NCBI GenBank assembly: GCA_026225275.1
Contig: JAMFSL010000082.1
Coordinates: forward strand, 1 to 38,601
Origin: Puia dinghuensis
Lineage (GTDB): Bacteria; Bacteroidota; Bacteroidia; Chitinophagales; Chitinophagaceae
DNA: 38,601 bases
Direction: 5' to 3'
The notes under the pieces are model-generated. The model saw only the letters and a list, made by a program, of their open reading frames with translations. It made no database searches and was not told where the DNA came from. Made by a program: the position numbers and the translations under genes. This document shows, piece after piece, positions 25,950 to 38,601 of this stretch. How positions within the stretch are numbered: position 1 is the first letter of the stretch; every line of letters begins with the position of its first letter.

Positions 25950-27041
25950 ATGGCAATATTCCCCGTATTCGGCAAAGCCCCTGCCGGAGCAAGGCTGCAA
26001 CGCATTCTGCAATCTCCCCATTACAAGGATAATCATTTTGAGAATCTGGTTCCTACCTCCGTCGCGTTGGAGGGGGTTTCCATGGTTAAGATGTTTCGGG
26101 ATATGAGTCACCGGCCGGCCGATGTGAAGCCTTCTCATCCTCTTCCTTCCGTGCATACCGATCTTCGGGCCTTACCGAAGGACAGGGCTACCATCGTCTG
26201 GTTCGGGCATTCTTCTTATCTGCTGCAGATCAATCAAACGACGATACTGGTCGATCCGGTTTTCAGCGGTCATGCGTCGCCGGTATCTTTCATGGCGAAA
26301 GCGTTTCCCGGAACGAACATCTATACGGCGGCGGATATGCCGGCAATAGATATTATGCTGCTGACGCATGATCATTATGATCATCTCGACTATAAGACTA
26401 TCAAGCAGCTGATGCCGAAGACTAAGCATTATTGTACCTCACTGGGGGTGGGGGCGCATCTGGAATCGTGGGGGATATCGCCGGATAAGATCACGGAACT
26501 GGACTGGTGGGAGAGCTGGAGTGCGGGCACGGAGAATGGGAAGGAAGCCGGCGGAGGGAAGGGGTCGGGGGATGCTGGGGAGATCATATTCACAGCGACG
26601 CCGGCGCGGCATTTTTCGGGCCGGGCCTTTAAGCGGGGCGGTACTATATGGTCTTCTTTTGTGTTGAAGGCGGGGGGCTATTCCTTATTCCTTGGCGGGG
26701 ACTCCGGCTATGAACAACATTTCAAAGCCATCGGAGAGCAGTTCGGGCCTTTCGATCTGGCGGTGCTGGAATGCGGGCAGTATGGAAAGAACTGGCCGTA
26801 TATTCATATGCTGCCCGAGCAGGTCGTGCAGGCGGCCCTGGATTTGAGGGCAGCGGCGTTGATGCCTGTACACTGGGCGAAGTTCACGCTGTCGCTGCAT
26901 CCCTGGGATGAGCCGATCCGGCGGGTGACAACTGCTGCGGTGGAGAGAGGTATGCCTGTGGCGACGCCGATGATCGGGCAACCGGTCGTGGTGCGGGAAT
27001 CCTATCCCGACGCGCGGTGGTGGGAAGCGATAGTAAAATAA
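25950..27041 (+). CDS. MBL-fold metal-dependent hydrolase (NAPE-PLD/UlaG-like)
   Basis: A 363-residue metallo-beta-lactamase-fold hydrolase. The zinc motif HDHYDHLD (140-147; H140, H142, D144, H145) is preceded by WFGHSSYLLQINQTTILVDP (84-103, in two strands) as in the N-acylphosphatidylethanolamine phospholipase D-like group. Further ligands are in ARHFSGR, LGGDSGYEQHF and MPVHWAKF. There is no signal peptide, so it seems cytoplasmic. A Gly/Glu/Lys-rich stretch (191-210) interrupts the fold between two core strands, like the insert in the gene before. A phosphodiesterase or lactonase action on lipid-like molecules is possible. It starts 25 bases after the alpha/beta hydrolase and may share its transcript. 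Confidence 0.88.
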   Translation: MAIFPVFGKAPAGARLQRILQSPHYKDNHFENLVPTSVALEGVSMVKMFRDMSHRPADVKPSHPLPSVHTDLRALPKDRATIVWFGHSSYLLQINQTTILVDPVFSGHASPVSFMAKAFPGTNIYTAADMPAIDIMLLTHDHYDHLDYKTIKQLMPKTKHYCTSLGVGAHLESWGISPDKITELDWWESWSAGTENGKEAGGGKGSGDAGEIIFTATPARHFSGRAFKRGGTIWSSFVLKAGGYSLFLGGDSGYEQHFKAIGEQFGPFDLAVLECGQYGKNWPYIHMLPEQVVQAALDLRAAALMPVHWAKFTLSLHPWDEPIRRVTTAAVERGMPVATPMIGQPVVVRESYPDARWWEAIVK

Positions 27042-27227: not shown

Positions 27228-27680
27228 ATGTGGGTGAAGAAGTATTTCGAAGAATTCGAGATCGGCCATACCCGGCAGACGACCGGGCGCACGATTACAG
27301 AAACGGATATCGTGATCCACGCCGGTCAGACCGGTGACTTCTTTCCGCATCATATGGATGAAGAATGGTGCAAGACACAACCTTTTGGTAAAAGGATCGC
27401 TCACGGCACACTTGTCTTCAGCATCGCCATCGGCCTGACGGCCGACCATATCAACGAGGTATCGATGACCTATGGATACGAACGTCTTCGTTTCACCCGT
27501 CCCGTTTTTATCGGGGATACCATCCGGGTGGAAGTGACCATCAAGAGTGTAGCCGATCATAAGAAGCCAGGATATGGGTTGGTCTTCGAGGCGATAGAGA
27601 CTTATAATCAGCACCGTGAAGTGGTCATGGTCTGCGAACATATTTCAATGGTAGAAAAAAAGAACTTTATAAAAGCCTGA
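27228..27680 (+). CDS. MaoC family (R)-specific enoyl-CoA hydratase-like protein
   Basis: A 150-residue cytoplasmic hot-dog-fold hydratase/dehydratase acting on CoA thioesters. The hydratase motif with its Asp and His is [14 protein letters not shown] (34-47; D37 and H42, the D-x4-H spacing of R-hydratases). [18 protein letters not shown] (53-70) is the overhanging-loop region of the family, and [16 protein letters not shown] is the typical central strand pair. Single-domain MaoC proteins of this type hydrate enoyl-, mesaconyl- or related CoA esters. It is the first gene of the long operon, and its stop overlaps the next start by one base (TGATG). With two CoA-transferases downstream, a role on the CoA ester they make is a fair inference. 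Confidence 0.92.
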
Positions 27681-28873
27681 TGCCGGAAATTCATTTAAAA
27701 GGAATCACCTGGGGGCATAGCCGGGGCTTTACTCCGCTTGCTGCTGCTGCGCAACGCTTTTCCGAGCGTTATCCGGGGGTGACCATTACGTGGGAAAAAC
27801 GGAGCCTGCAACATTTTGCCGACTATCCTATCGAGAGGCTAACGCGGCAATACGATTTGCTCATTATTGATCATCCCTGGGTAGGGCGTGCTGCCACACT
27901 GGGTTGCGTGCTACCCCTTGACGAATGGCTGCCCGCTGCCTTTCTACAGGAGCAGGCCGATCATTCCGTCGGAGAGTCCCATCAAAGCTATCAATACGGT
28001 GGCCATCAATGGGCATTAGCCGTCGATGCGGCCACGCCGGTCGCCAGCTACAGGTCCGATCTGCTGCAACAGGCGGGAAGGCGGCTACCGCAGACCTGGA
28101 AAGAGGTGCTGGAGATTGCACGGCTGGGCAAACTGGCTGTGCCGGCCATACCCATCGATCTGCTGATGAATTTCTATATGTTTTGTATCGCTCATGGAAC
28201 GCCTCCTTTTCAACAGGATGCTGAAGTCATCGATCTGGCTACAGGATATGCCGCACTCGGTACCATGAAAGAGCTCTATTCTCTTGTCGATGAAAAGATG
28301 TTTCAGGCCAATCCGATTGCCGTTGCAGAGTGGATGAGCAGCACCGATGATTACTGGTATTGCCCCTTTGCGTATGGGTATTCGAATTATTCACGGGAGG
28401 GGTATGCCGCGCATCCGCTGGCGTATGCGGACCTGGTGGAGATGGGAGGGGGCGGGGAAAAAAGCGGGAGAGGAGTGGCCAAGTTGCGTAGTACCATCGG
28501 AGGAACGGGGCTGGCCGTATCGGCGTACAGTCAACGCCGGGAGTGGGCACTTGCCTTTACGGAGATGGTGGCCGATCCGTTGTTCCAATCCACTTTTTAT
28601 GTACAGCATAGCGGTCAACCGGGGCACCGGCTGGCCTGGGAGAACGAGAGTGCAAACCGACTGACCAACCAATTTTTTTCTACTGTCCTGCCGGCCATGG
28701 AAAGAGGCTATATGCGCCCCCGCTATGACGGATACCTTTATTTTCAGGATCATGCGGGAGATGCCGTTCAGGAATATCTATTGCAAAAGAGAGATGCTGC
28801 CAGCGTGCTTGCGACGATGAATCATCTGTACCGGGAAAGCAGGGAAAAAAACCCGATCAACTCTTTCGTATGA
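27680..28873 (+). CDS. Family 1 solute-binding-protein fold lacking a signal peptide
   Basis: A 397-residue protein with the fold of ABC-importer binding proteins: first strand at residues 4-11, PGVTITWEKRS (32-42), YDLLIIDHPWVGRAA (58-72), VLPLDEWLP, then WALAVDAATPVASYRSDLL (111-129) and the PQTWKEVLEIA hinge helix (137-147). Binding proteins are normally exported, but here the first core strand begins four residues from the start, and the start codon overlaps the maoC stop, leaving no room for a signal. I see no nearby ABC permease or ATPase. So it is probably a cytoplasmic ligand-binding or enzyme-assisting protein of the CoA-transferase cluster. A Gly-rich loop (255-266) is odd. Its stop overlaps the next start (ATGA). 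Function unknown. Confidence 0.88.
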   Translation: MPEIHLKGITWGHSRGFTPLAAAAQRFSERYPGVTITWEKRSLQHFADYPIERLTRQYDLLIIDHPWVGRAATLGCVLPLDEWLPAAFLQEQADHSVGESHQSYQYGGHQWALAVDAATPVASYRSDLLQQAGRRLPQTWKEVLEIARLGKLAVPAIPIDLLMNFYMFCIAHGTPPFQQDAEVIDLATGYAALGTMKELYSLVDEKMFQANPIAVAEWMSSTDDYWYCPFAYGYSNYSREGYAAHPLAYADLVEMGGGGEKSGRGVAKLRSTIGGTGLAVSAYSQRREWALAFTEMVADPLFQSTFYVQHSGQPGHRLAWENESANRLTNQFFSTVLPAMERGYMRPRYDGYLYFQDHAGDAVQEYLLQKRDAASVLATMNHLYRESREKNPINSFV

Positions 28874-30012
28874 ATCAATTACCGTTACACGGATTGACCG
28901 TATTGGAATTCAGCCAATACCTCTCAGGGCCGTCCGCCGGACTCCGGCTGGCCGATCTGGGGGCGCGGGTCATCAAGATAGAACGACCTGTCACGGGTGA
29001 TGCCTGTCGTCGCCTGTCCATCAAGAATCTCTGGATAGACGGCGATTCGTTGTTATTCCATACCATCAACAGGAATAAAGAAAGCTATACCGCCGACCTG
29101 AAATCTCCGGAAGACAGGGTAATCCTTCGGAAGCTCATTGCAGAGGCGGACGTGCTGACACATAATTTTCGTCCCGGGGTGATGGAGAGTGCAGGTCTCG
29201 ATTATCCAGCGGTGCAGCTCTTGAATCCACGGATCGTTTATGGAGCTATCAGCGGCTATGGCAATGAGGGGCCCTGGAAGGGCCGGCCGGGGCAGGATCT
29301 GCTGCTGCAATCCATGAGCGGGCTGGCGTACATGACCGGTAACGAAATGGATTCTCCCATGCCGTTTGGGCTCTCCATTGCCGATAGTCTATGTGGCGCT
29401 CAATTGGTGCAGGGTATCCTGGGTGCGCTGGTGCGCAGACATAAGACCGGCGAAGGCGCGCTGGTGGAGATCAGCATGATGGAATCCCTACTGGACCTTC
29501 AATTCGAATTTATGACCACCTATCATAGTAGCGGGGTATTGCCACGGCGCAGTAAATTCAGCAATGGGAATCCGTTGCTGAGCGCGCCATACGGCATCTA
29601 TGCCACATCCGACGGGTATATCGCCATTGCGATGATCAACATCCCCCAGCTGGCCCAGGCCATTGAATCCGAGGCGCTGGCGGAATTCAGTCAGGAGCAA
29701 GCATTCAGTCACCGGGATGAGATCAAGGAGATTCTGACCCGGCACCTGGGAGGTCAAGCGACAGGTTGGTGGTTAGAGCGGCTGCATGCCGAAGATATGT
29801 GGGCCATGGAAGTGCTCGACTGGCAACGGCTGACGGCGCATGAAGGATACCGCTGTCTGGAGATCGAGCAGCCTATCATGACCCATCGGGGCAAGAGTCT
29901 GGTGACTACCCGTTGTCCGATAAGGATAGATGGGGAGAGATTATTTTCGGCCAAACCGGCTCCCTCTCTGGGGCAGGACAACGAACGTATCGTTATGGAA
30001 CTTTTAAAATGA
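28870..30012 (+). CDS. CaiB/BaiF family CoA-transferase, first of two
   Basis: A 380-residue cytoplasmic type III CoA-transferase, moving CoA between an acyl-CoA donor and a carboxylic acid. Family signatures: [20 protein letters not shown] (12-31), [10 protein letters not shown] (31-40), [14 protein letters not shown] (99-112) and [10 protein letters not shown] (127-136). The candidate catalytic Asp, equivalent to Asp169 of formyl-CoA transferase, is D172 in SIADSLCG. The length is slightly below the usual 390-430. It is coupled by four-base overlaps to the binding-protein-like gene before and to its paralogue after. The two share roughly half their residues by eye over their full length, so they may form a heteromer, as in succinyl-CoA:malate CoA-transferase. 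Substrate unknown. Confidence 0.92.
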
Positions 30013-31178
30013 TGCAGGGAATGAATTTATTGCAGGATATGATCGTCATCGATTTCAGTCAGTTTTTATCAGGGCCTTCCGCGGGTCTGCGGCTGGCGGA
30101 TATGGGGGCCAGGGTGATCAAGATCGAGCGGCCGGGGACGGGCGATATATGTCGTCAGTTATACGTTTCTGATACCCGGATCGAAGGCGAGTCGACCATC
30201 TTTCATGCGATCAACCGTAACAAGGAAAGCTATGCTGCCGATCTGAAGGATGCGGGAGACGTAGAAAAGGTCAGGCAACTGATCAGCCGGGCCGATGTGG
30301 TGTTGCATAATTTCCGGCCCGGGGTGATGGAGCGGCTGGGGTTCGATTATGCCACCGTGAAGGCCATCAAGCCGGATATTGTATATGGGGAAGTCAGCGG
30401 CTATGGTAATGAAGGCCCCTGGGCCGATCTGCCGGGACAGGACTTGCTGGTGCAGGCGTTGTCGGGTCTGACGTGGCTAAGCAATAACAGAGACGAGCGG
30501 CCGACGCCCATGGGGGTATCCGTTGTGGACATACTGGCGGGCACTTATCTGACCCAGGGCATTCTTGCCGTGCTGTACCGCCGGGAATTGAAAGGGATCG
30601 GCGGCCTGGTGCAGGTCAGCATGCTGGAAGCGATCCTCGACTTTCAGTTTGAGGTGCTGACTTGTTTTTATAATGACGGGCGGCAGCTGCCGGTGAGGAG
30701 CCGGATCAGCAATGGCAATGCCTATATACCGGCCCCCTATGGCATTTATAAGACGAGGGAAGGCTATCTCTCGCTGGCGATGGGAGATATTCCCCGGTTA
30801 GCCGCGTTGCTGGAGTGCGCTGAACTGGAAAGTTTTACTGATAGTACCGAATGGTACGACCAGAGAGATGAGATCAAGGCGATACTGGCCGATCACCTGC
30901 TGACGCGGACTGCGGATGAGTGGTTGTCCATTCTGCAGCCGGCAGATATCTGGTGTGCAAAGGTGATGGACTATCGGGAGCTGATGGAACAGGTCGGTTA
31001 TAAGGTGCTGGATATGGAATTAAAGGTGAAGACCAGCAATGGGTTGTCCATCAGGACCACCCGCTGTCCCATAAGGGTAGACGGACAATTATCCCTGTCC
31101 GAAAGGGGTGCGCCCATACTGGGAGAGCATAATGATCTTATCGACGCCCAATTTGGGTTGGGTGTCGCCGCTACATAA
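30009..31178 (+). CDS. CaiB/BaiF family CoA-transferase, second of two
   Basis: A 389-residue paralogue of the preceding gene, aligning end to end with it: [20 protein letters not shown] (14-33), [14 protein letters not shown] (101-114), [10 protein letters not shown] (129-138) and a kept catalytic Asp (D174 in SVVDILAG). Both copies therefore look active. I start it at the ATG at 30009, which overlaps the previous stop (ATGA); the frame is open further upstream from a TTG at 29913, but that lies inside the first copy. A 29-base gap leads to the lactonase-like gene. Whether the two copies act on different acids or as one heteromeric enzyme cannot be told from sequence alone. Confidence 0.92.
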
Positions 31179-31207
31179 GCTAAATTTATGGTTCATACCA
31201 TAAACAT

Positions 31208-32113
31208 ATGATTGAAAATGTGATTGATACGCATGTTCATATTTGGGATTTCGACCATGCGGACTATCCCTGGCTGAAGGGGGATACCTCGCTGCTCAAC
31301 CGGACGTATGCGCTGGAAGAGCTCGAGGCAGATCGGATAAAGGTTGGTGTTACCGGGGGCGTGCTTGTTCAGGCGGCCAATAACCGGGAGGACACCGATT
31401 GGATGCTGCGGGTAGCTGCTCGCAGCGGGTGGATCAAGGGGGTTGTCGGGTGGCTGCCTTTGCAAGATCCGGTTGCGGCAGGGTGGGCGCTCGAGGAGTT
31501 TTATGGGGAGGGTAGTTACCTGAAAGGGGTTCGGCATTTGATACATAATGAGGCTGATCCTGGCTGGCTGTTGCAGGCGCCGGTGCTGGAAAGTCTGGGG
31601 CTGTTGGCGGCGCGCGACCTGCCTTATGATGTGGTGGGTGTCGTTGCCGATCATTTGCGGACGGCGTTGCGGGTGGCGGAGAGATGGCCGGGGTTGCGGT
31701 TGGTGCTGGACCATCTGAATCAGCCGTCGATAGGGAAGCCGGGAGAAGAAAAGGAGTGGAGGGAGTTGATGACAGCGGCGGCGGCGCATGAAAATATTTA
31801 TGTGAAGATCTCGGGGCTGGGGACCATAGCGATGGCGGGGTTAGCGGCGAGAGGGAGTCCTGTAGCGGGGAACGGGCGGGATTGGAGGCCGGAGGATCTG
31901 GAGCCATCCATCGGGTTCGTGCTCGAGCAATTCGGTACCGATCGCATCTTTTGCGGAGGAGACTGGCCTGTGTGTCTGCTGGCGGGGAGTTATGAGAGGG
32001 TTTGGGCGGCATATCGATCCGTCCTGGAAAAATATCTGGATAGTGGGGATCAGGCAAAGGTGCTTTATAGCAATGCTAAACGATTTTATAAGCTTCCGGA
32101 AGGAGGCCTATAG
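31208..32113 (+). CDS. Amidohydrolase-2 family hydrolase, lactonase-like (COG3618 type)
   Basis: A 301-residue cytoplasmic TIM-barrel hydrolase. DTHVHIWD (7-14) gives the HxH metal ligands (H9, H11), DWMLRVAARSGWIKGVVGW (64-82) the second strand, GVRHL (107-111), LDHLNQP (168-173) a further ligand His, YVKISGL (199-204) and GGDWPV (250-255) the final Asp (D252). This arrangement is that of lactonases for fucono-, rhamnono- and galactaro-lactones and of pyrone-dicarboxylate lactonase. Beside a RhaT-like carrier and a sugar-type dehydrogenase, a sugar lactonase is the best reading (inference). A small Gly/Ala/Ser stretch (210-222) follows the KISGL strand. The next gene begins 15 bases on. Confidence 0.88.
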   Translation: MIENVIDTHVHIWDFDHADYPWLKGDTSLLNRTYALEELEADRIKVGVTGGVLVQAANNREDTDWMLRVAARSGWIKGVVGWLPLQDPVAAGWALEEFYGEGSYLKGVRHLIHNEADPGWLLQAPVLESLGLLAARDLPYDVVGVVADHLRTALRVAERWPGLRLVLDHLNQPSIGKPGEEKEWRELMTAAAAHENIYVKISGLGTIAMAGLAARGSPVAGNGRDWRPEDLEPSIGFVLEQFGTDRIFCGGDWPVCLLAGSYERVWAAYRSVLEKYLDSGDQAKVLYSNAKRFYKLPEGGL

Positions 32114-32128
32114 CTTAAACAAAGCCAT

Positions 32129-33145
32129 ATGAACGTCATTATCGGGTTAAGCATGCTCATATTAGGCGGGATCTCCGCCGGTAGCAGTTATGTGCCCTTG
32201 CGTGGGGTCAAGGGCTGGGCCTGGGAAAGTCTTTGGGCTGTGCAGGGTGTTGTGGCATGGTTGCTACTACCCTTGTTGCTGGCCCTGGTGGCCGCGCCTC
32301 ACCTGGGCGAAGTGCTGCGTTCTACTTCCTTTTCAACGCTGGCGACTACCTATAGTTTTGGTTTTCTGTGGGGGCTGGGTGGCCTGGCCTGGGGTATAGC
32401 CGTACGTTATATCGGGCTGGCGCTTGGTTTTTCCATCGCTACCGGCTTCTTGTCTTCTCTTGGTACGTTAGTCCCCATCATTGCGGCCGGCAGACTGCCC
32501 GAGGTCATGGGGAGTGTTTCCGGCAGAGTTATCCTACTGAGTGTGGGCATTTCTTTGCTGGGTATTTTTATTTGCGGTGTAGCGGGCTGGAGGCGGGATA
32601 AGGAGATCGGTAAGGACCAGACATTTCAATTCAGGAGGGGGGTATTCATAGCGTTGGCTGCCGGGGTGTTGGGGGCCTGTTTTGCTTTCGGGATCACTGC
32701 GGGGGAGCCCATCAGAGTGCATGCGATAGCGGCGGGTTGTCCGCCGGTGTGGGCCGCTTCGCCGATCTTCTTCGTCGAGCTGCTGGGCGGCATCACCGTA
32801 AACCTGCTGTATTGTCTGTGGATGAACCGGCGCAACGGGACTTTTTCCGATTACCGGTCGACCAAGGTGGAAGGTGCGCTGGCCGGTAACTATCTCTTTT
32901 CAGCGTTGGTGGGAGCGCTATGGTATCTGCAATTCGTTTTTTATGGGATGGCCTCTTTTTATATGGGCCCTTACAGTTTTGCCAACTGGTCCGTCCACAT
33001 GTCCTTCATGGTGGTGGCCAGCAATCTGTGGGGTTATTATTTCAAAGAGTGGAAGGGTGTTTCTGCCGCGACGATACGGTGGAATAATGCCGGGATACTC
33101 GTGTTGGTGGTGGCCGGTATTGTGATGGGCATTGCCGGGTATTGA
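32129..33145 (+). CDS. RhaT-like L-rhamnose/proton symporter family protein
   Basis: A 338-residue inner-membrane transporter with about ten membrane helices, belonging to the RhaT family of the drug/metabolite transporter superfamily. The start, IIGLSMLILGGISAGSSYVPLRGVKGWAWE in helix 1 and the first loop (given as LILGGISAGSSYVPL and KGWAWES), the WGIAVRYIGLALGFSI stretch and the GALWYLQFVFYGMA helix match RhaT's conserved regions. The E. coli protein carries L-rhamnose or L-lyxose with H+. Bacteroidota have many copies inside sugar loci whose substrates are unknown, so the gene symbol is withheld. It probably imports the monomer used by the flanking dehydrogenase and lactonase. The next gene's ATG is 22 bases after the stop. 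Confidence 0.87.
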   Translation: MNVIIGLSMLILGGISAGSSYVPLRGVKGWAWESLWAVQGVVAWLLLPLLLALVAAPHLGEVLRSTSFSTLATTYSFGFLWGLGGLAWGIAVRYIGLALGFSIATGFLSSLGTLVPIIAAGRLPEVMGSVSGRVILLSVGISLLGIFICGVAGWRRDKEIGKDQTFQFRRGVFIALAAGVLGACFAFGITAGEPIRVHAIAAGCPPVWAASPIFFVELLGGITVNLLYCLWMNRRNGTFSDYRSTKVEGALAGNYLFSALVGALWYLQFVFYGMASFYMGPYSFANWSVHMSFMVVASNLWGYYFKEWKGVSAATIRWNNAGILVLVVAGIVMGIAGY

Positions 33146-33167
33146 TAATAGCATAAAGACAAGGAAC

Positions 33168-34235
33168 ATGATCATTGAGACCAGTAATACGTTGCCACGG
33201 CAGGCGAGACCCATCATTCTGATCGGGGCTGGCGGCATTGTCAACGGGGCACATTTACCTGCGTATAAGCTGGCGGGTTTCTGGGTGGCCGGGATTTACG
33301 ATATCGATCGGGAGAAGGCGTTGCGGACGGCGACCGATTTTGATATTCCGCTGGTGTATTATACTATCGAAGACATGCTCGACCGGTCGCCCCGTTCGGC
33401 GGTTTTCGACATTGCGGTGCCGGGGTCCGAGATACTGGCTGTGCTGAGGCAGCTGCCTGACGCCGCTTATGTGCTGATGCAGAAACCGATGGGTGAGGAC
33501 CTGGCGATGGCCCGGGAGATCCTGGCGCTGACGCGCGAACGGCGGATGACGGCGGGGGTCAACTTCCAGCTGAGATACGCTCCCTATATCAATGCTGCCC
33601 GCAACATCATCAGCCAGGGGCTGATCGGCGAATTGTGCGACATAGAGGTTAACGTCAATGTGCATACACCGTGGAACTTATGGAAATTCCTGTATTCTCT
33701 GCCGAGGGTGGAGATCCTTTATCACAGTATTCACTATATAGACCTGGTCCGGACTTTCTTAGGCAATCCTGACAGTGTTTATGCAAAGACCACCCGGCAT
33801 CCTTCCATGCCGGAGCTGGCGTCCGTTCGATCGGCCATCATCATGGATTATGGAGAGACCATCCGCGCCAATATTTTGACCAATCATTGCCATGACTTCG
33901 GATTAGAGCAGCAGCACTCCTACATCAGGCTAGAAGGCACACGGGGCGCCATCCTGATCAAGATGGGCGTGTTGATGAATTATCCGGAGGGAGTGGCCGA
34001 CAGTTTTCAATATGTGATCAAGGAAAATGGAAAGGTGCCCGAATGGAAGACATTGGAGGTTGCGGGCAGTTGGTTTCCCCATGGTTTTATCGGCAGTATG
34101 GCGCAGGTGATGCTGGCTGCTGAGGGGGCGATCGAGCGGCCTGACAATTCGGTTGAAGATGCTATCCACACAATGGCTTGTGTGGAGGCGGCCTATGAGT
34201 CTAATGTCCGGGGAGGGGTGCGGCCACTTCTGTAA
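33168..34235 (+). CDS. Gfo/Idh/MocA family oxidoreductase
   Basis: A 355-residue cytoplasmic NAD(P)-dependent dehydrogenase. The nucleotide motif is ILIGAGGIVNGAHLPAY (17-33); the EKP motif of the family reads QKPMGE (105-110) with the catalytic Lys K106 kept and Glu replaced by Gln. NFQLRYAP (132-139) and HSIHYIDLVRTFLGNP (186-201) give the catalytic His/Asp pattern (H189, D192). The C-terminal alpha/beta domain is complete. It would oxidise a sugar, cyclitol or sugar acid, possibly giving the lactone for the hydrolase two genes upstream. I prefer the ATG at 33168, preceded by AAGGAA, over a TTG 12 codons upstream. SusC starts 15 bases later. Confidence 0.9.
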   Translation: MIIETSNTLPRQARPIILIGAGGIVNGAHLPAYKLAGFWVAGIYDIDREKALRTATDFDIPLVYYTIEDMLDRSPRSAVFDIAVPGSEILAVLRQLPDAAYVLMQKPMGEDLAMAREILALTRERRMTAGVNFQLRYAPYINAARNIISQGLIGELCDIEVNVNVHTPWNLWKFLYSLPRVEILYHSIHYIDLVRTFLGNPDSVYAKTTRHPSMPELASVRSAIIMDYGETIRANILTNHCHDFGLEQQHSYIRLEGTRGAILIKMGVLMNYPEGVADSFQYVIKENGKVPEWKTLEVAGSWFPHGFIGSMAQVMLAAEGAIERPDNSVEDAIHTMACVEAAYESNVRGGVRPLL

Positions 34236-34250
34236 ACCAACACTTGCTAT

Positions 34251-37200
34251 ATGAACACGCGATTAAAAAACCGATTTCTGTGGAATTTATTTATTCTGCT
34301 GCTGATCGCTTCACCTGGTTTTTCGCAGGTAAGGCAGATCACCGGCGTTATTTATGATGAAGGGACCGGTCAGCCGCTGGCCGGCGTCAGTGTCAGCATC
34401 TTCGGAAAGGGGGGTGGCACAGGTGCGAATGGGCAAACATCCGTTACCGATAGTTCGGGCGCCTTTAGCATTAGGGCTGGCGACCATGCCACCCTGGTCT
34501 TTACGTACATCGGCTACGAGCGAACGGAGTACAAGTCAGGTAGTCAGAATATTATTCGGGTGGGTATGAAAAAGACTGATAAAAGCATGGATGAGGTAGT
34601 CGTGGTCGGCTACGGCACGGTCAAGAAGAGAGATCTTACCGGCGCCATCTCGACTGTTAAAGCCGATGATATAGTCAGGTCGCCCACGTCCAATCCGCTG
34701 GAAGCGGTGGAAGGGATGGTGCCGGGAGCGGATATTACCCAAACATCGGGTAAGGCCAATTCGACGCCCAATATCGAGATCCGTGGCGACCGCAGTATTA
34801 ACGGGAGTTCGACTCCGTTGTACATTATCGATGGTATCCAGGGCGGTAACATCAATACCATCAATCCCAACGATATCGAGTCCATCGAATTCCTGAAGGA
34901 TGCTTCGTCTACGGCGATATACGGTTACCAAGGCGCGAATGGGGTCGTGATCGTGACCACGAAAAAAGGTAATGCAGGAAAGGTGAAAGTCAATTATAAC
35001 GGATATTACGGCGTCAACGGGTTCATTCAATATCCCACGCCACGGGTAGGTGCGTCGTATCTCGATCTGCGACGGGCGGCGAACTTGCAGACGGGCGTCT
35101 GGAACAGTCCTGCCGACGATGCCAAGATCTTCGGAGCGGCATATCCGGCCGTGGAGGCCAACCAATGGGTGAATTGGGTAAAACTGGTGAAGCAAAACGG
35201 GATCCGCCAAGATCACTCTGTCTCCATCAGCGGAGGCAGTGAAAAGAGCAAGACCTATCTTTCCGTCGGGTATTTCCAGGATGACGGGATGGTGAAGATG
35301 AACAATATCAGGCAGTACAATGCGCTGTTAAACCACGACCAGACCATCAGTCCGTGGGTCAAGGCGGGTGCGCAGGCTTCTTTCGTTTATTCCAACGCCA
35401 ATATCCGGTCGGGTGACCCTTATTCGCTGGCCGAAACGGCGATTCCGCTGGGTACGCCTTACAATGCCAATGGGACCGTCGATGTATACCCGATAGCCGG
35501 CAATGCGGCATCGCTGAGTCCTTTGTCGGATGACAGGGGGTCGTTGATCGCTACCAATAATTCCATTTCCACGCAGACAGGCTTAGTCGGCCATATCGAT
35601 CTGACGCCGCCGATGATCAAAGGGTTGACCCTGCGGACGCAATTCGGAGCTAATTTCTATAGTACCCGGAGTGGGTCCTTCTTCGATTCGTCTTCGCTGG
35701 AAGAGGTCAGCAGCAAACTTGTAACCGCCAGCGTGACCAATTCCAACAGCCGTGCCTATGACTGGGATAATATTCTAACCTATAGCAGGCAGCTGGGCGA
35801 CCATTCCTTCACGCTGACCGCTCTCAGCAGCTATATCGGCAATTATAGCGAAACTTATACCGAATCGGGTACGGGCCTGATCTATAATTCGCAGTTATTC
35901 TTTGCGTTACAGAGCACCACTCCCACCAACCGGACCATATCATCGGGCTATACCCAGACCAATAGCATGTCCTATGCGGGAAGGCTCAATTATTCCTACA
36001 AGGGCAAATATCTACTGACCCTTACGGAACGCGAGGATGGGGTATCCATTTTATCGGCGGGGCATAAATGGGCAGCGTTTCCCTCTGCCGCGGCGGCCTG
36101 GCGGATCAGTGATGAAAAATTCATGCAGAATGTCAGCCCTGTATCCAATCTAAAGCTGCGTTTCAGCTATGGCGTAGCGGGTAACTCGGGCATTCCGGCT
36201 TATGGAACGCAGAGCTACCTCGTCGTGCAGCAAATGGGATTCGAGAATGCCGCCGCGCCGGCGTATATCTTCAATACGACCATCGGCAACCAGGATGTAG
36301 GCTGGGAGTTGTCCAAGACGGCAGATCTGGGGCTGGACATGGGATTCTTCAAAGAGCGGCTGGATGTGACCGTGGATGTGTACAATACCAATACCGACCA
36401 TATTTTGTTGTTGCGCAGTCTGCCGTTGAGCCTCGGCGTTCAGGACACGTATCAGAACGTAGGCGTTTCGCAGAACAGGGGGATCGAGACTGGGATCAAT
36501 GCCCGTATTATCGACAACCGGTCTTTCAAATGGATATCTACGGTCAGCTTTATGTCGAACTCTGAGAAGATCACCAGGTTGATCAATGGTACCGATATCA
36601 TCAGCTCGGCCAATGCGGAGACCGAATCCCTTTTGCTAGGTCATCCCGTTCACTCTTTTTACAATTACATCAAGGAAGGCATCTGGCAGACGGCGGATTC
36701 GGCGCAGGCGTCGCATCTCCTCAATGGAACGACGCCGTTCAAGCCCGGGGATATCAAGCTGAAGGATCTTAACCATAGCGGCACCATCTCGCCGGACAGT
36801 GACCGGACCTATATCGGTTCAGTTGAACCGAAGTGGTCGTTAGGTTTTCAAAACACCTTCATCTACAAACATTTCGACCTGACCCTATATGCGATAGCCC
36901 GTTGGGGGCAGATGATCGACGCAGGTTTCCTGGGAAGGTATGACCCTGAGGGCATCACCAATGGGCCGGCATATTTCAGCTACTGGACGCCGACCCATCC
37001 GACCAATGATTATCCGCGGGCGCAGTCCAATGAAACGTTGTCCGGGTATCTGGGCAATACGACCCTGGAATATGTGAACGCCTCTTATGTGAAGCTGAAG
37101 ACGGCGACGCTAGGGTATACGTTGCCGGCCAGTGCATTGAAGAGTGCCTGGATGACGAGTATCCGGGCCTATGTGACCTGCAACAATATTTTTGTCAAGG

Positions 37201-37301
37201 CCAAAAGCCATCTGATCAAAGACTACGATCCGGAAAGGGGCGGGGCGGAAGACTCGCCATTATCCCGTCAGCTGGTCGTGGGATTGAACGTCGGATTGTA
37301 A
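34251..37301 (+). CDS. SusC/RagA family TonB-linked outer-membrane transporter
   Basis: A 1016-residue outer-membrane beta-barrel receptor that takes up oligomers with TonB energy. Order: signal peptide (1 to about 25, ending SPGFSQ); carboxypeptidase-regulatory-like domain (about 27-105, starting ITGVIYDEGTGQPLAGVSV); the TonB-interacting stretch DEVVVVGYGTVKKRDLTGAI (about 115-135); plug domain with NPLEAVEGMVPGADI and IRGDRSINGSSTPLYIIDG; a large barrel domain; and a short final strand QLVVGLNVGL. No STN domain, so no direct anti-sigma signalling. The length is typical. A Gly-rich stretch (GKGGGTGANGQ) widens the N-terminal domain. It pairs with the SusD gene 59 bases downstream. Confidence 0.96.
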   Translation: MNTRLKNRFLWNLFILLLIASPGFSQVRQITGVIYDEGTGQPLAGVSVSIFGKGGGTGANGQTSVTDSSGAFSIRAGDHATLVFTYIGYERTEYKSGSQNIIRVGMKKTDKSMDEVVVVGYGTVKKRDLTGAISTVKADDIVRSPTSNPLEAVEGMVPGADITQTSGKANSTPNIEIRGDRSINGSSTPLYIIDGIQGGNINTINPNDIESIEFLKDASSTAIYGYQGANGVVIVTTKKGNAGKVKVNYNGYYGVNGFIQYPTPRVGASYLDLRRAANLQTGVWNSPADDAKIFGAAYPAVEANQWVNWVKLVKQNGIRQDHSVSISGGSEKSKTYLSVGYFQDDGMVKMNNIRQYNALLNHDQTISPWVKAGAQASFVYSNANIRSGDPYSLAETAIPLGTPYNANGTVDVYPIAGNAASLSPLSDDRGSLIATNNSISTQTGLVGHIDLTPPMIKGLTLRTQFGANFYSTRSGSFFDSSSLEEVSSKLVTASVTNSNSRAYDWDNILTYSRQLGDHSFTLTALSSYIGNYSETYTESGTGLIYNSQLFFALQSTTPTNRTISSGYTQTNSMSYAGRLNYSYKGKYLLTLTEREDGVSILSAGHKWAAFPSAAAAWRISDEKFMQNVSPVSNLKLRFSYGVAGNSGIPAYGTQSYLVVQQMGFENAAAPAYIFNTTIGNQDVGWELSKTADLGLDMGFFKERLDVTVDVYNTNTDHILLLRSLPLSLGVQDTYQNVGVSQNRGIETGINARIIDNRSFKWISTVSFMSNSEKITRLINGTDIISSANAETESLLLGHPVHSFYNYIKEGIWQTADSAQASHLLNGTTPFKPGDIKLKDLNHSGTISPDSDRTYIGSVEPKWSLGFQNTFIYKHFDLTLYAIARWGQMIDAGFLGRYDPEGITNGPAYFSYWTPTHPTNDYPRAQSNETLSGYLGNTTLEYVNASYVKLKTATLGYTLPASALKSAWMTSIRAYVTCNNIFVKAKSHLIKDYDPERGGAEDSPLSRQLVVGLNVGL

Positions 37302-37314
37302 ACCTGATCTTACA

Positions 37315-37333
37315 GCGCCGCTGAAAGCGGTGC
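37315..37333 (+). repeat. Hairpin between susC and susD
   Basis: GCGCCGCT (37315-37322) pairs with AGCGGTGC (37326-37333) with one G-U pair around a GAA loop, 14 bases after the SusC stop. No T-run follows, so it is not a terminator; such intergenic hairpins can protect the upstream message or tune the SusC:SusD ratio (inference). Confidence 0.5.
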
Positions 37334-37360
37334 ACATTTATCAACGATAAAAACGCCATT

Positions 37361-38601
37361 ATGCAAACGTTAAAATATTTTTTAGTTATCGGGATCACAG
37401 GTCTACTGCTGACCGGGCTGTCATCCTGTAATAAAAATCTGACTGAATATAATCCTGGTAACGGGACTGCAAATACCGTCTGGTCTACACCGGCGGGTTT
37501 TCTGACTAATGTAAACGGAGCCTATTCCTACATTCCCTTTCTGTATGGCAATGATGAGAACGGGCTGTTCCTTTCCGAACCGGGAACTGATCTCTGGTAT
37601 AATTATAATAAGACCGCTTATGATGTCGATCTGACCCAGTACCAGAATTTCAATTCGGGGTCCAATCCGTGCAAGAGCGTCTGGACGACCTTGTATGCGG
37701 GCATCAACCTATGCAATGCGGGTATCGGCAGGATCAATGGCGCCGGATTTACAAACCCGGTAGAGATGAATATGCGGCTGGCGGAATTGAAATTCCTGCG
37801 GGCCTTCTATAACTGGTGGGTGGTGGAAAGTTTTGGCGGGGTGGTGCTGGATACCGTCGAGACGACGACCGCGCAGTTAACGGCGCAGCGCAGTTCCGTC
37901 ACCGATTTTTACAATCTGATCTTCAGCGATCTGAAATTTGCCATTGCGAATCTGCCTAATGTGAGCGGCAAGAATACGAATGTTTCCAGCGGTATCTGGG
38001 ATTTTGGCCGGGCGACCAAGCCGGCGGCGCTGGCGCTGATGGCGCGGGCCTGTCTGTCTTATGGGTATTATAGTACGGGAGGGAATACCTATTTCCAGCA
38101 GGCGCATGACTATGCGGATTCCATCATCCTGAACCAGTCGCTGTACAATGTAAGCTTGTATCCAAGTTATGCCAATATGTGGGCGCCGGCCAACCGGCTG
38201 GGCAGCAGCAGCGCCAAGACGAACCAGGAGGCGATCTTCTGGGCCACCTATTCCCCTACTACGACGCTGGATATCAATTCCAATGCGGACAGGACCCATC
38301 TGTGGTTCCTCACCAATTACAGCGGTTATTCGGGGACAGCGATACCGGGGCTGACGCTGAGTCTGGCCTATGGTAATGATCAGAAGAATCGCCGGTTCAT
38401 GCCGACGCGGGCAGCGCTTGAGTTTTACAATGACACCATTGATTCGCGGTTTGCGGCGAGTTTCCAGGGGTTGTGGCTTTGCAATGAGGTCGATACGCTG
38501 AAGGCTGCGGATATAAAGACCTGGGGTAAGGATCCGAGCCTGATCGGTCACGTTTTGCATATCGGGGATACGGCGATGCTGATCAGCAAGTATCCGATTC
38601 C
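37361..38601 (+). CDS. SusD/RagB family outer-membrane lipoprotein (cut by window end)
   Basis: The first 413 residues of a SusD-like substrate-binding lipoprotein. The signal ends in a lipobox (LTGLSSC, Cys at about 24) followed by NKNLTEYNPG. Then come the SusD-N region (FLTNVNGAYSYIPFLYGNDE) and the tetratricopeptide-like helices with the hallmark AELKFLRAFYNWWVVESFGG (about 148-167), a Bacteroidota motif for the first core helices, then DLKFAIANLP and ALMARACLSYGYYS. The protein binds the ligand at the cell surface and lids the SusC channel. The frame stays open to the last base, with the C-terminal third missing. Base composition matches SusC. Confidence 0.93.
   Translation, partial: MQTLKYFLVIGITGLLLTGLSSCNKNLTEYNPGNGTANTVWSTPAGFLTNVNGAYSYIPFLYGNDENGLFLSEPGTDLWYNYNKTAYDVDLTQYQNFNSGSNPCKSVWTTLYAGINLCNAGIGRINGAGFTNPVEMNMRLAELKFLRAFYNWWVVESFGGVVLDTVETTTAQLTAQRSSVTDFYNLIFSDLKFAIANLPNVSGKNTNVSSGIWDFGRATKPAALALMARACLSYGYYSTGGNTYFQQAHDYADSIILNQSLYNVSLYPSYANMWAPANRLGSSSAKTNQEAIFWATYSPTTTLDINSNADRTHLWFLTNYSGYSGTAIPGLTLSLAYGNDQKNRRFMPTRAALEFYNDTIDSRFAASFQGLWLCNEVDTLKAADIKTWGKDPSLIGHVLHIGDTAMLISKYPI

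Follow-up and report, generated by a model that had tools for sequence, protein, structure and literature searches.

A CoA-transferase and MaoC gene set with a signal-less binding-protein homologue in Puia dinghuensis and its relatives, predicted to act on 6-deoxyhexose acids

Background

The oxidative, non-phosphorylative route for L-fucose and L-rhamnose proceeds through a dehydrogenase, a lactonase and a dehydratase, followed by an aldolase or by a dehydrogenase together with a hydrolase of the FAH type. In the CaiB/CaiD pathway for carnitine, coenzyme A (CoA) is passed between the substrate and the dehydrated product, and the dehydration takes place on the thioester. Here we describe an operon of nine genes on a contig of Puia dinghuensis (JAMFSL010000082.1; 38,601 nucleotides, in full length called the window) that encodes a MaoC-type hydratase, a homologue of sugar-binding proteins, two CaiB/BaiF CoA-transferases, an amidohydrolase, a RhaT-like carrier, a Gfo/Idh/MocA dehydrogenase and a SusC/SusD pair. 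The L-fuconolactonase-like amidohydrolase, the sugar dehydrogenase and the 6-deoxyhexose carriers recall the oxidative route, as do mutarotase, FAH or DHDPS genes in some relatives. Unlike this route as we know it, the set comprises CoA-transferases, MaoC or crotonase and a presumably cytosolic binding-protein homologue, and no enolase- or IlvD-type dehydratase was found in two Flavobacterium genomes. As in the carnitine pathway, the module is proposed to pass CoA between substrate and dehydrated product, but its hydratase belongs to a different family and the L-carnitine CoA-transferase model gave 86.6 and 78.2 bits (cut-off 413).

The methylaspartate cycle contains a succinyl-CoA:mesaconate CoA-transferase and a mesaconyl-CoA hydratase (PMC5592240), likewise a class III CoA-transferase and an enoyl-CoA hydratase that together convert an organic acid. 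The window differs from it by sugar-degradation neighbours, a second transferase and the binding-protein homologue, and the matches of its two CoA-transferases to NF041294 reached only 153 and 175.5 bits (cut-off 700). Cyclohexadienyl dehydratase is reported to be a solute-binding-protein fold turned enzyme (PMC7683729), and the binding-protein fold of the window possibly has a metabolic role as well; the window protein, however, has a predicted MalE-type sugar-binding fold and no signal. With the polysaccharide-utilisation loci of Bacteroidota the window shares the SusC/SusD pair, and in relatives glycoside hydrolase (GH) genes lie beyond SusD; unlike the usual locus, a CoA-based catabolic block is located directly upstream of SusC. 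Among the literature matches listed, as titles and abstract beginnings, no description of this gene set was seen, which does not prove its absence from print, and the matches listed for Sinorhizobium meliloti locus data held nothing on this block. The set is apparently an undescribed, conserved CoA-dependent module for 6-deoxyhexose acids.

The operon and its gene products

Nine open reading frames (ORFs) of the plus strand extend from 27228 to the window end at 38601, and for each of them Pfam agreed with the family given in the initial annotation:

27228..27680, + strand: MaoC-type hydratase/dehydratase; PF01575, 88.9 bits; best solved relative 4ffu, E 4.9e-55
27680..28873, + strand: signal-less MalE-fold binding-protein homologue (SBP_bac_1 by Pfam); no NCBIfam match
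28870..30012, + strand: CaiB/BaiF (class III) CoA-transferase, first copy; PF02515, 321.6 bits; Asp143 in PGQD
30009..31178, + strand: CaiB/BaiF (class III) CoA-transferase, second copy; PF02515, 316.6 bits from 30012 on
31208..32113, + strand: Amidohydrolase_2, L-fucono-1,5-lactonase-like; PF04909; NF052480, 153 bits (cut-off 400); best solved relative 4dlf, E 2.4e-29
32129..33145, + strand: RhaT-like sugar/proton symporter; PF06379, 183 bits; NF010024, 336.6 bits (cut-off 468)
33168..34235 (or from a TTG start at 33132), + strand: Gfo/Idh/MocA dehydrogenase; PF01408, PF02894 and PF22725 above cut-offs, below all NCBIfam cut-offs
34251..37301, + strand: SusC/RagA TonB-dependent receptor; TIGR04056, 778.9 bits, above cut-off; Pfam Plug and CarboxypepD_reg
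37361..38601, + strand: SusD-like lipoprotein, incomplete at the contig end; PF14322; 67 % identical to the L116 relative over residues 2-413 of its 595

For the second CoA-transferase the ATG at 30009 was chosen as start; the longest ORF begins with TTG at 29913. The overlaps between the first four genes measure 1, 4 and 4 bases and the later gaps 29, 15, 22 (an overlap instead, if the TTG start of the Gfo gene is used), 15 and 59 bases, in agreement with the one-strand layout of 1-4 base overlaps and 15-59 base gaps described before. None of the seven catabolic and transport proteins encoded before SusC had an NCBIfam match reaching its cut-off. SusD is incomplete because the window is an entire contig (C172) of the source assembly. 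Neither the rest of SusD nor its right-hand neighbour in relatives was found elsewhere in this assembly, one of the searches having had no positive control.

For the second gene product a MalE-type sugar-binding fold was predicted. An export signal peptide was not detected: the protein begins at the first strand of the fold, and there is no room for a signal peptide, as the gene starts directly after the MaoC stop. By eye, the homologues have a start codon at the corresponding position. The earlier reading as a signal-less binding protein was borne out. Cognate ABC permease genes were absent from the nine operon genes. Structure comparison yielded only sugar-binding proteins among the matches listed, which excludes nothing. 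In 80 binding-protein sequences from several phyla 31 positions were invariant, five of these by selection.

CoA transfer by the two CaiB/BaiF proteins is predicted. The Asp that we take to be the catalytic residue of class III CoA-transferases was present in all 238 aligned sequences, both window copies included (copies with a minimum score of 250 bits and a minimum length of 340 residues; known same-locus repeats were removed, a few remain). The window copies are 51 % identical to each other. In a midpoint-rooted tree, 87 of 103 second-position copies formed one clade free of first-position copies (support 0.98), thus the pair is old. The GDFFPHH motif of the window MaoC presumably corresponds to the Asp-x4-His dyad of MaoC and (R)-hydratases, which was kept in 110 of 118 homologues; the other eight represent a second kind of MaoC within the same loci. 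The Gfo motif QKP was found in 98 of 102 homologues and the metal motif HxH of the amidohydrolase in 39 of 40; these three counts cover homologues above a score cut, same-locus repeats included.

Conservation of the module

The conserved core consists of the signal-less MalE-fold protein, CaiB/BaiF CoA-transferases and MaoC, replaced by a crotonase in some lineages, often together with Gfo/Idh/MocA; SusC/SusD do not belong to it. A genome scan yielded 162 relatives; the analysis covered the best 80 loci (7 of them below 15 kb). CoA-transferases were nearby in 75 of these (at least one) and 73 (two), MaoC in 72 and Gfo in 70. Since this set favours close relatives, genomes were also drawn evenly. 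Among Bacteroidota the binding-protein gene was present at E 1e-60 in 19 of 395 genomes and 10 of 170 genera, source genome included, leaving 18 other loci; 17 of these held two CoA-transferases, 15 MaoC, 15 Gfo and 17 either MaoC or a crotonase, the crotonase matches being weak (165-168 bits). The Cohnella family had the gene at E 1e-80 in 20 of 295 genomes, at 24 places. All 24 places had at least one CoA-transferase, and 23 had MaoC (10) or crotonase (13), never together, as expected for alternatives at one step. In the Clostridium family 2 of 250 genomes possessed the binding-protein gene. Over the pooled 122 loci (80, 18 and 24, three of them counted in two sets) the binding-protein gene overlapped or abutted a CoA-transferase gene in 84 and lay at most 60 bases away in 18 more; no same-strand CoA-transferase was found beside it in six. 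ORFs were taken at their longest length, therefore gene overlaps in these counts are overstated.

As controls served 20 same-size regions elsewhere on contigs of the sampled genomes (14 Bacteroidota, 6 Cohnella family). CoA-transferases, MaoC, crotonase, an amidohydrolase of this kind, RhaT and binding-protein homologues were absent from all 20; the regions did hold weak Gfo matches (three, 50-53 bits), SusC/SusD (two), GH2 (one) and a weak match to an SSF carrier (one). As the association was found again in other genomes but in none of the controls, it is more than chance. Co-conservation in several genera, which the initial annotation had named as a check, was thus observed, and it extends to other phyla.

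Related gene sets span Bacteroidota, Bacillota, Alphaproteobacteria and Actinomycetota. A haloarchaeon is probably also reached, through a second binding-protein family: on a plasmid of Halostagnicola larsenii (L126:8921-17231) genes for a CoA transferase, an AMP-binding protein, a signal-less binding protein, MaoC, Gfo and a rhamnose mutarotase adjoin an alpha-L-fucosidase gene. The AMP-binding, acyl-CoA-ligase-like gene fits real CoA chemistry. Fourteen further loci (L096, L097, L099-L103, L105-L107, L135, L137, L138 and L130) carry a related set of CoA-transferase, binding protein and crotonase with ABC permease matches beside most of them; this set probably serves another sugar acid. At L115:13937-15256 a protein of 439 residues without Pfam match, membrane-protein-like by eye, adjoins the binding protein, two CoA-transferases and MaoC; a DHDPS aldolase gene is present in the surroundings, and no Gfo or amidohydrolase match was seen close by.

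A second family of signal-less MalE-fold proteins (c5) was observed in the same operons, at L078:13550-14770 and in 44 more of the 80 loci. This family and a close amidohydrolase never occurred in one locus (45 and 25 of the 80 loci, 11 and 4 of the 18). The c5 protein may be an alternative lactonase, a candidate only, as the mutual exclusion is confounded with lineage. Against this idea, c5 adjoins another lactonase-like gene in Persicobacter, and Flavobacterium has a more distant amidohydrolase. At two loci (L011:5980-15526 and L128:6096-12761) UxuA-like and RraA-like genes take the place of the CoA-transferases beside the binding-protein homologue, at L011 with a PhyH-like oxygenase gene in addition. 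The binding protein might serve a sugar acid whichever dehydration route operates.

SusC/SusD and glycoside hydrolases

The window contains an adjacent SusC/SusD pair, the mark of a polysaccharide-utilisation locus. Within about 10 kb of the block SusC or SusD was found in 4 of the 18 evenly drawn Bacteroidota loci versus 2 of the 14 Bacteroidota controls, thus no clear phylum-wide enrichment was observed, and the claim that the pair belongs to the defining set had to be given up. Among the closest Bacteroidota loci SusC or SusD was close in 29 of 74, and in 13 of 23 loci of the Chitinophagaceae type. SusC/SusD are a lineage-specific polysaccharide-utilisation setting of the module. Amidohydrolase, RhaT, Gfo and SusC genes are contiguous in three relatives (L003, L004, L005); L003 and L005 share with the window the direct succession of Gfo, SusC and SusD, and the L004 contig ends inside SusC.

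A glycoside hydrolase is indeed not visible in the operon, as had been pointed out; as a trait of the locus its absence was not upheld in the relatives. In L116, on the same contig as L003 and with the gene order of the window, SusD is followed by one gene and then by long ORFs with GH95, GH2 and GH78 domains. L117, another contig of the L004 genome that begins inside SusC (continuity is inferred), holds a relative of the post-SusD gene as well as a GH2 gene and a counterpart of the GH78 cluster; L118, a contig of L005, ends within the post-SusD gene. L117 and L118 have relatives of this large gene (L116:1786-4395) at the corresponding position. The L116 copy had no Pfam match at E 0.001, and for a relative in L014 the sole match was a weak one to GH20b. 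The missing glycoside hydrolases of the operon can be explained by the contig end in SusD, as relatives carry them past this gene. From its gene order and that of the relatives, the window is therefore best read as the left-hand portion of a polysaccharide-utilisation locus aimed at rhamnose- or fucose-rich material.

Predicted substrate

Neighbouring genes in several phyla point to 6-deoxyhexoses of the rhamnose or fucose type. The nearest solved relative of the window amidohydrolase, 4dlf, is presumably an L-fucono-1,5-lactonase. An annotated L-rhamnose mutarotase was present in 7 of 13 plasmid regions, hand-picked for examination and including Alphaproteobacteria and the haloarchaeon Halostagnicola; the seven belong to these two groups. 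Mutarotase-like genes were found at 4 of the 24 Cohnella-family places and 5 of the 80 closest loci, and a Pedobacter relative has a FucP-type carrier above the TIGR00885 cut-off. Genes of the GH78, GH106, GH95, GH141 and alpha-L-fucosidase types occur near the block in relatives, and 41 of the 80 loci have profile matches to GH78, GH106 or GH95 within reach. A DHDPS-family aldolase gene lies beside the block at L058, L064 and L115, in Clostridium and its family; 2,4-didehydro-3-deoxy-rhamnonate hydrolase-like genes, below cut-off, were detected in Flavobacterium (L078) and Qingshengfaniella (L123).

The dehydratase gap

The nine operon genes include neither an enolase- or IlvD-type sugar-acid dehydratase nor an aldolase or FAH-type hydrolase; the contig ends in SusD. 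The clearest gap was seen in Flavobacterium. At L078 (genome G008) the block adjoins a fucose dehydrogenase gene with a score above cut-off, genes for a lactonase-like amidohydrolase and for an alcohol dehydrogenase, and the hydrolase-like gene mentioned above, so that the oxidative fucose route of this genome is complete save the dehydratase. In a second genome (G732, locus L142) only the amidohydrolase and the hydrolase of the fucose route were seen, by custom profiles. Nine Flavobacterium genomes were compared: at about 100 bits, no more than two enolase-superfamily genes were present in eight of them, and six have a single ILVD_EDD gene. Gene by gene, G008 and G732 revealed no enolase- or IlvD-type sugar-acid dehydratase (UxuA-/altronate-type and other families were not searched genome-wide): their enolase-superfamily genes are DgcA-like and MenC-like, both below cut-off, and the sole ILVD_EDD gene scores above cut-off as IlvD. 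Elimination thus leaves the CoA module as the candidate for the dehydration. Beside CoA-transferases, the 18 evenly drawn Bacteroidota loci showed no MR/MLE or UxuA-like match. That genomes with the module generally lack dehydratases was not borne out, since all 18 genomes scanned hold enolase-superfamily genes.

Proposed route and alternative explanations

With a probability of roughly 0.5, we read the window as an oxidative 6-deoxy-L-hexose operon within a polysaccharide-utilisation locus, whose module would dehydrate the sugar acid as a CoA thioester. Judged from families and neighbours, SusC/SusD and RhaT would take up the sugar, Gfo/Idh/MocA would oxidize it to the lactone and the amidohydrolase would open the lactone to the aldonate. 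The two CaiB/BaiF enzymes would load CoA onto the aldonate and MaoC would dehydrate the aldonyl-CoA at C2-C3; the resulting enol would turn into 2-keto-3-deoxy-aldonyl-CoA, from which a further aldonate may take over the CoA. Cleavage of the free 2-keto-3-deoxy acid would fall to enzymes encoded elsewhere, either an aldolase or a dehydrogenase/hydrolase pair. The binding-protein homologue may act in the cytosol in the CoA step, as a substrate-presenting subunit or as an enzyme in its own right. We infer every reaction and substrate of this route, and the order of oxidation, lactone opening, CoA transfer and MaoC reaction suggested earlier is supported in the same sense; the chemistry of the module rests on gene content and one clear gap. 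The wider proposal is somewhat more tentative: sugar acids may be degraded as CoA thioesters, with the transferases and MaoC or crotonase replacing a metal-dependent dehydratase, helped by a cytosolic binding-protein homologue that lost its export and gained a catalytic or presenting role.

Several observations weigh against this reading. All NCBIfam matches of the CoA-transferases are below cut-off, and only 12 of the 24 Cohnella-family places hold two of these genes. MaoC and a crotonase match co-occur in L153, the one such case among the 18 even loci, and in L065. The binding protein stands without CoA-transferases at 5 of the 80 loci, all five with MR/MLE and four also with UxuA-like genes (exception L015), likewise in Microvirga with both, and at L156 with neither. 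A mutarotase was present in 1 and rhamnosidase- or fucosidase-type matches in 5 of the 18 even Bacteroidota loci. In Flavobacterium, G583 holds a third enolase-type gene and G764, G784 and G878 a second ILVD_EDD gene; the source genome of the window holds six enolase-superfamily genes elsewhere, thus the gap is not demonstrated there. The module adjoins an enolase-type gene in five Alphaproteobacterial regions (L121-L123, L125, L132), two of which (Shinella, Roseibium) also carry an annotated L-fuconate dehydratase, and a gene of the mandelate-racemase family is present in the haloarchaeal region. MR/MLE-profile matches lie near 5 of the 75 close loci with CoA-transferases (L024, L049, L065, L066, L069), and MR/MLE and UxuA-like matches at two Cohnella-family places each. 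That the module always replaces a dehydratase is weakened by the Alphaproteobacteria and these five close loci; the CoA step may be additional in some organisms. The step of Gfo is uncertain, because Flavobacterium possesses a fucose dehydrogenase in addition to Gfo.

The L-fuconate dehydratases beside the module in Shinella and Roseibium would be explained if it acted on a substituted 6-deoxy-sugar acid, e.g., 3-O-methyl or 3-O-acyl, by beta-elimination from the CoA thioester, and thereby fed the ordinary fuconate or rhamnonate route. Pectin-type neighbours around the Flavobacterium locus L078 (GH28, pectic lyase, GH141) are in line with such substrates. We consider this unlikely, as no substituent-specific gene was recognised among the annotated ones and the ordinary dehydratase it needs was not found in the two Flavobacterium genomes. 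Improbable to a similar degree is a binding-protein homologue that itself is the sugar-acid or lactone enzyme, with the CoA-transferases and MaoC processing another product of the same sugar. The 5 loci and Microvirga, where it occurs without CoA-transferases, and the 31 invariant positions would suit an enzyme, and a dehydratase is reported to have evolved from a solute-binding-protein fold (PMC7683729). However, the MR/MLE or UxuA-like genes of the CoA-transferase-free loci could dehydrate, and the association with CoA-transferase and MaoC or crotonase is far commoner.

Less probable still, the CoA genes may degrade an acyl group (acetyl, malonyl, aromatic or similar) freed from a glycoside, and not the sugar. 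CaiB/BaiF and MaoC families mostly act on ordinary organic acids, and sialate O-acetylesterase and acetylxylan esterase genes are located near the Rufibacter block; yet in L121-L123, L125, L132 and L133 the annotation shows no esterase of this kind beside the block, which the mutarotase and Gfo accompany there. The chance is equally slim that a generic uptake locus merely became the neighbour of an unrelated acid-degradation operon. The low frequency of SusC/SusD near the block in the even loci agrees with this, but the contiguous genes from amidohydrolase to SusC in three relatives, the 13 of 23 Chitinophagaceae-type loci and the rhamnosidase or fucosidase genes near the block in several phyla speak against it.

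Flanking and intergenic sequences

Promoter- and terminator-like matches were absent from the intergenic gaps, except for a promoter-like match at 33120-33149 across the RhaT stop. Such matches were about as frequent as in shuffles (12 versus 11.1 and 11 versus 9.4), and TAnnTTTG, which we take to be the Bacteroidota -7 motif, showed no excess over chance in a window-wide search. A metallo-beta-lactamase-fold hydrolase gene (25950-27041, same strand) lies directly upstream of the operon; L003 and L004, too, have a relative upstream of the block.

Implications

If the proposed role of the CoA module is correct, it would present an undescribed way of dehydrating sugar acids. It would also assign a function to proteins that are automatically annotated as extracellular solute-binding proteins although they have no export signal, and may be one more example of metabolism recruiting a transport protein. 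For some soil and plant-associated bacteria, the module would close a gap in the use of rhamnose and fucose from pectin and other plant glycosides.

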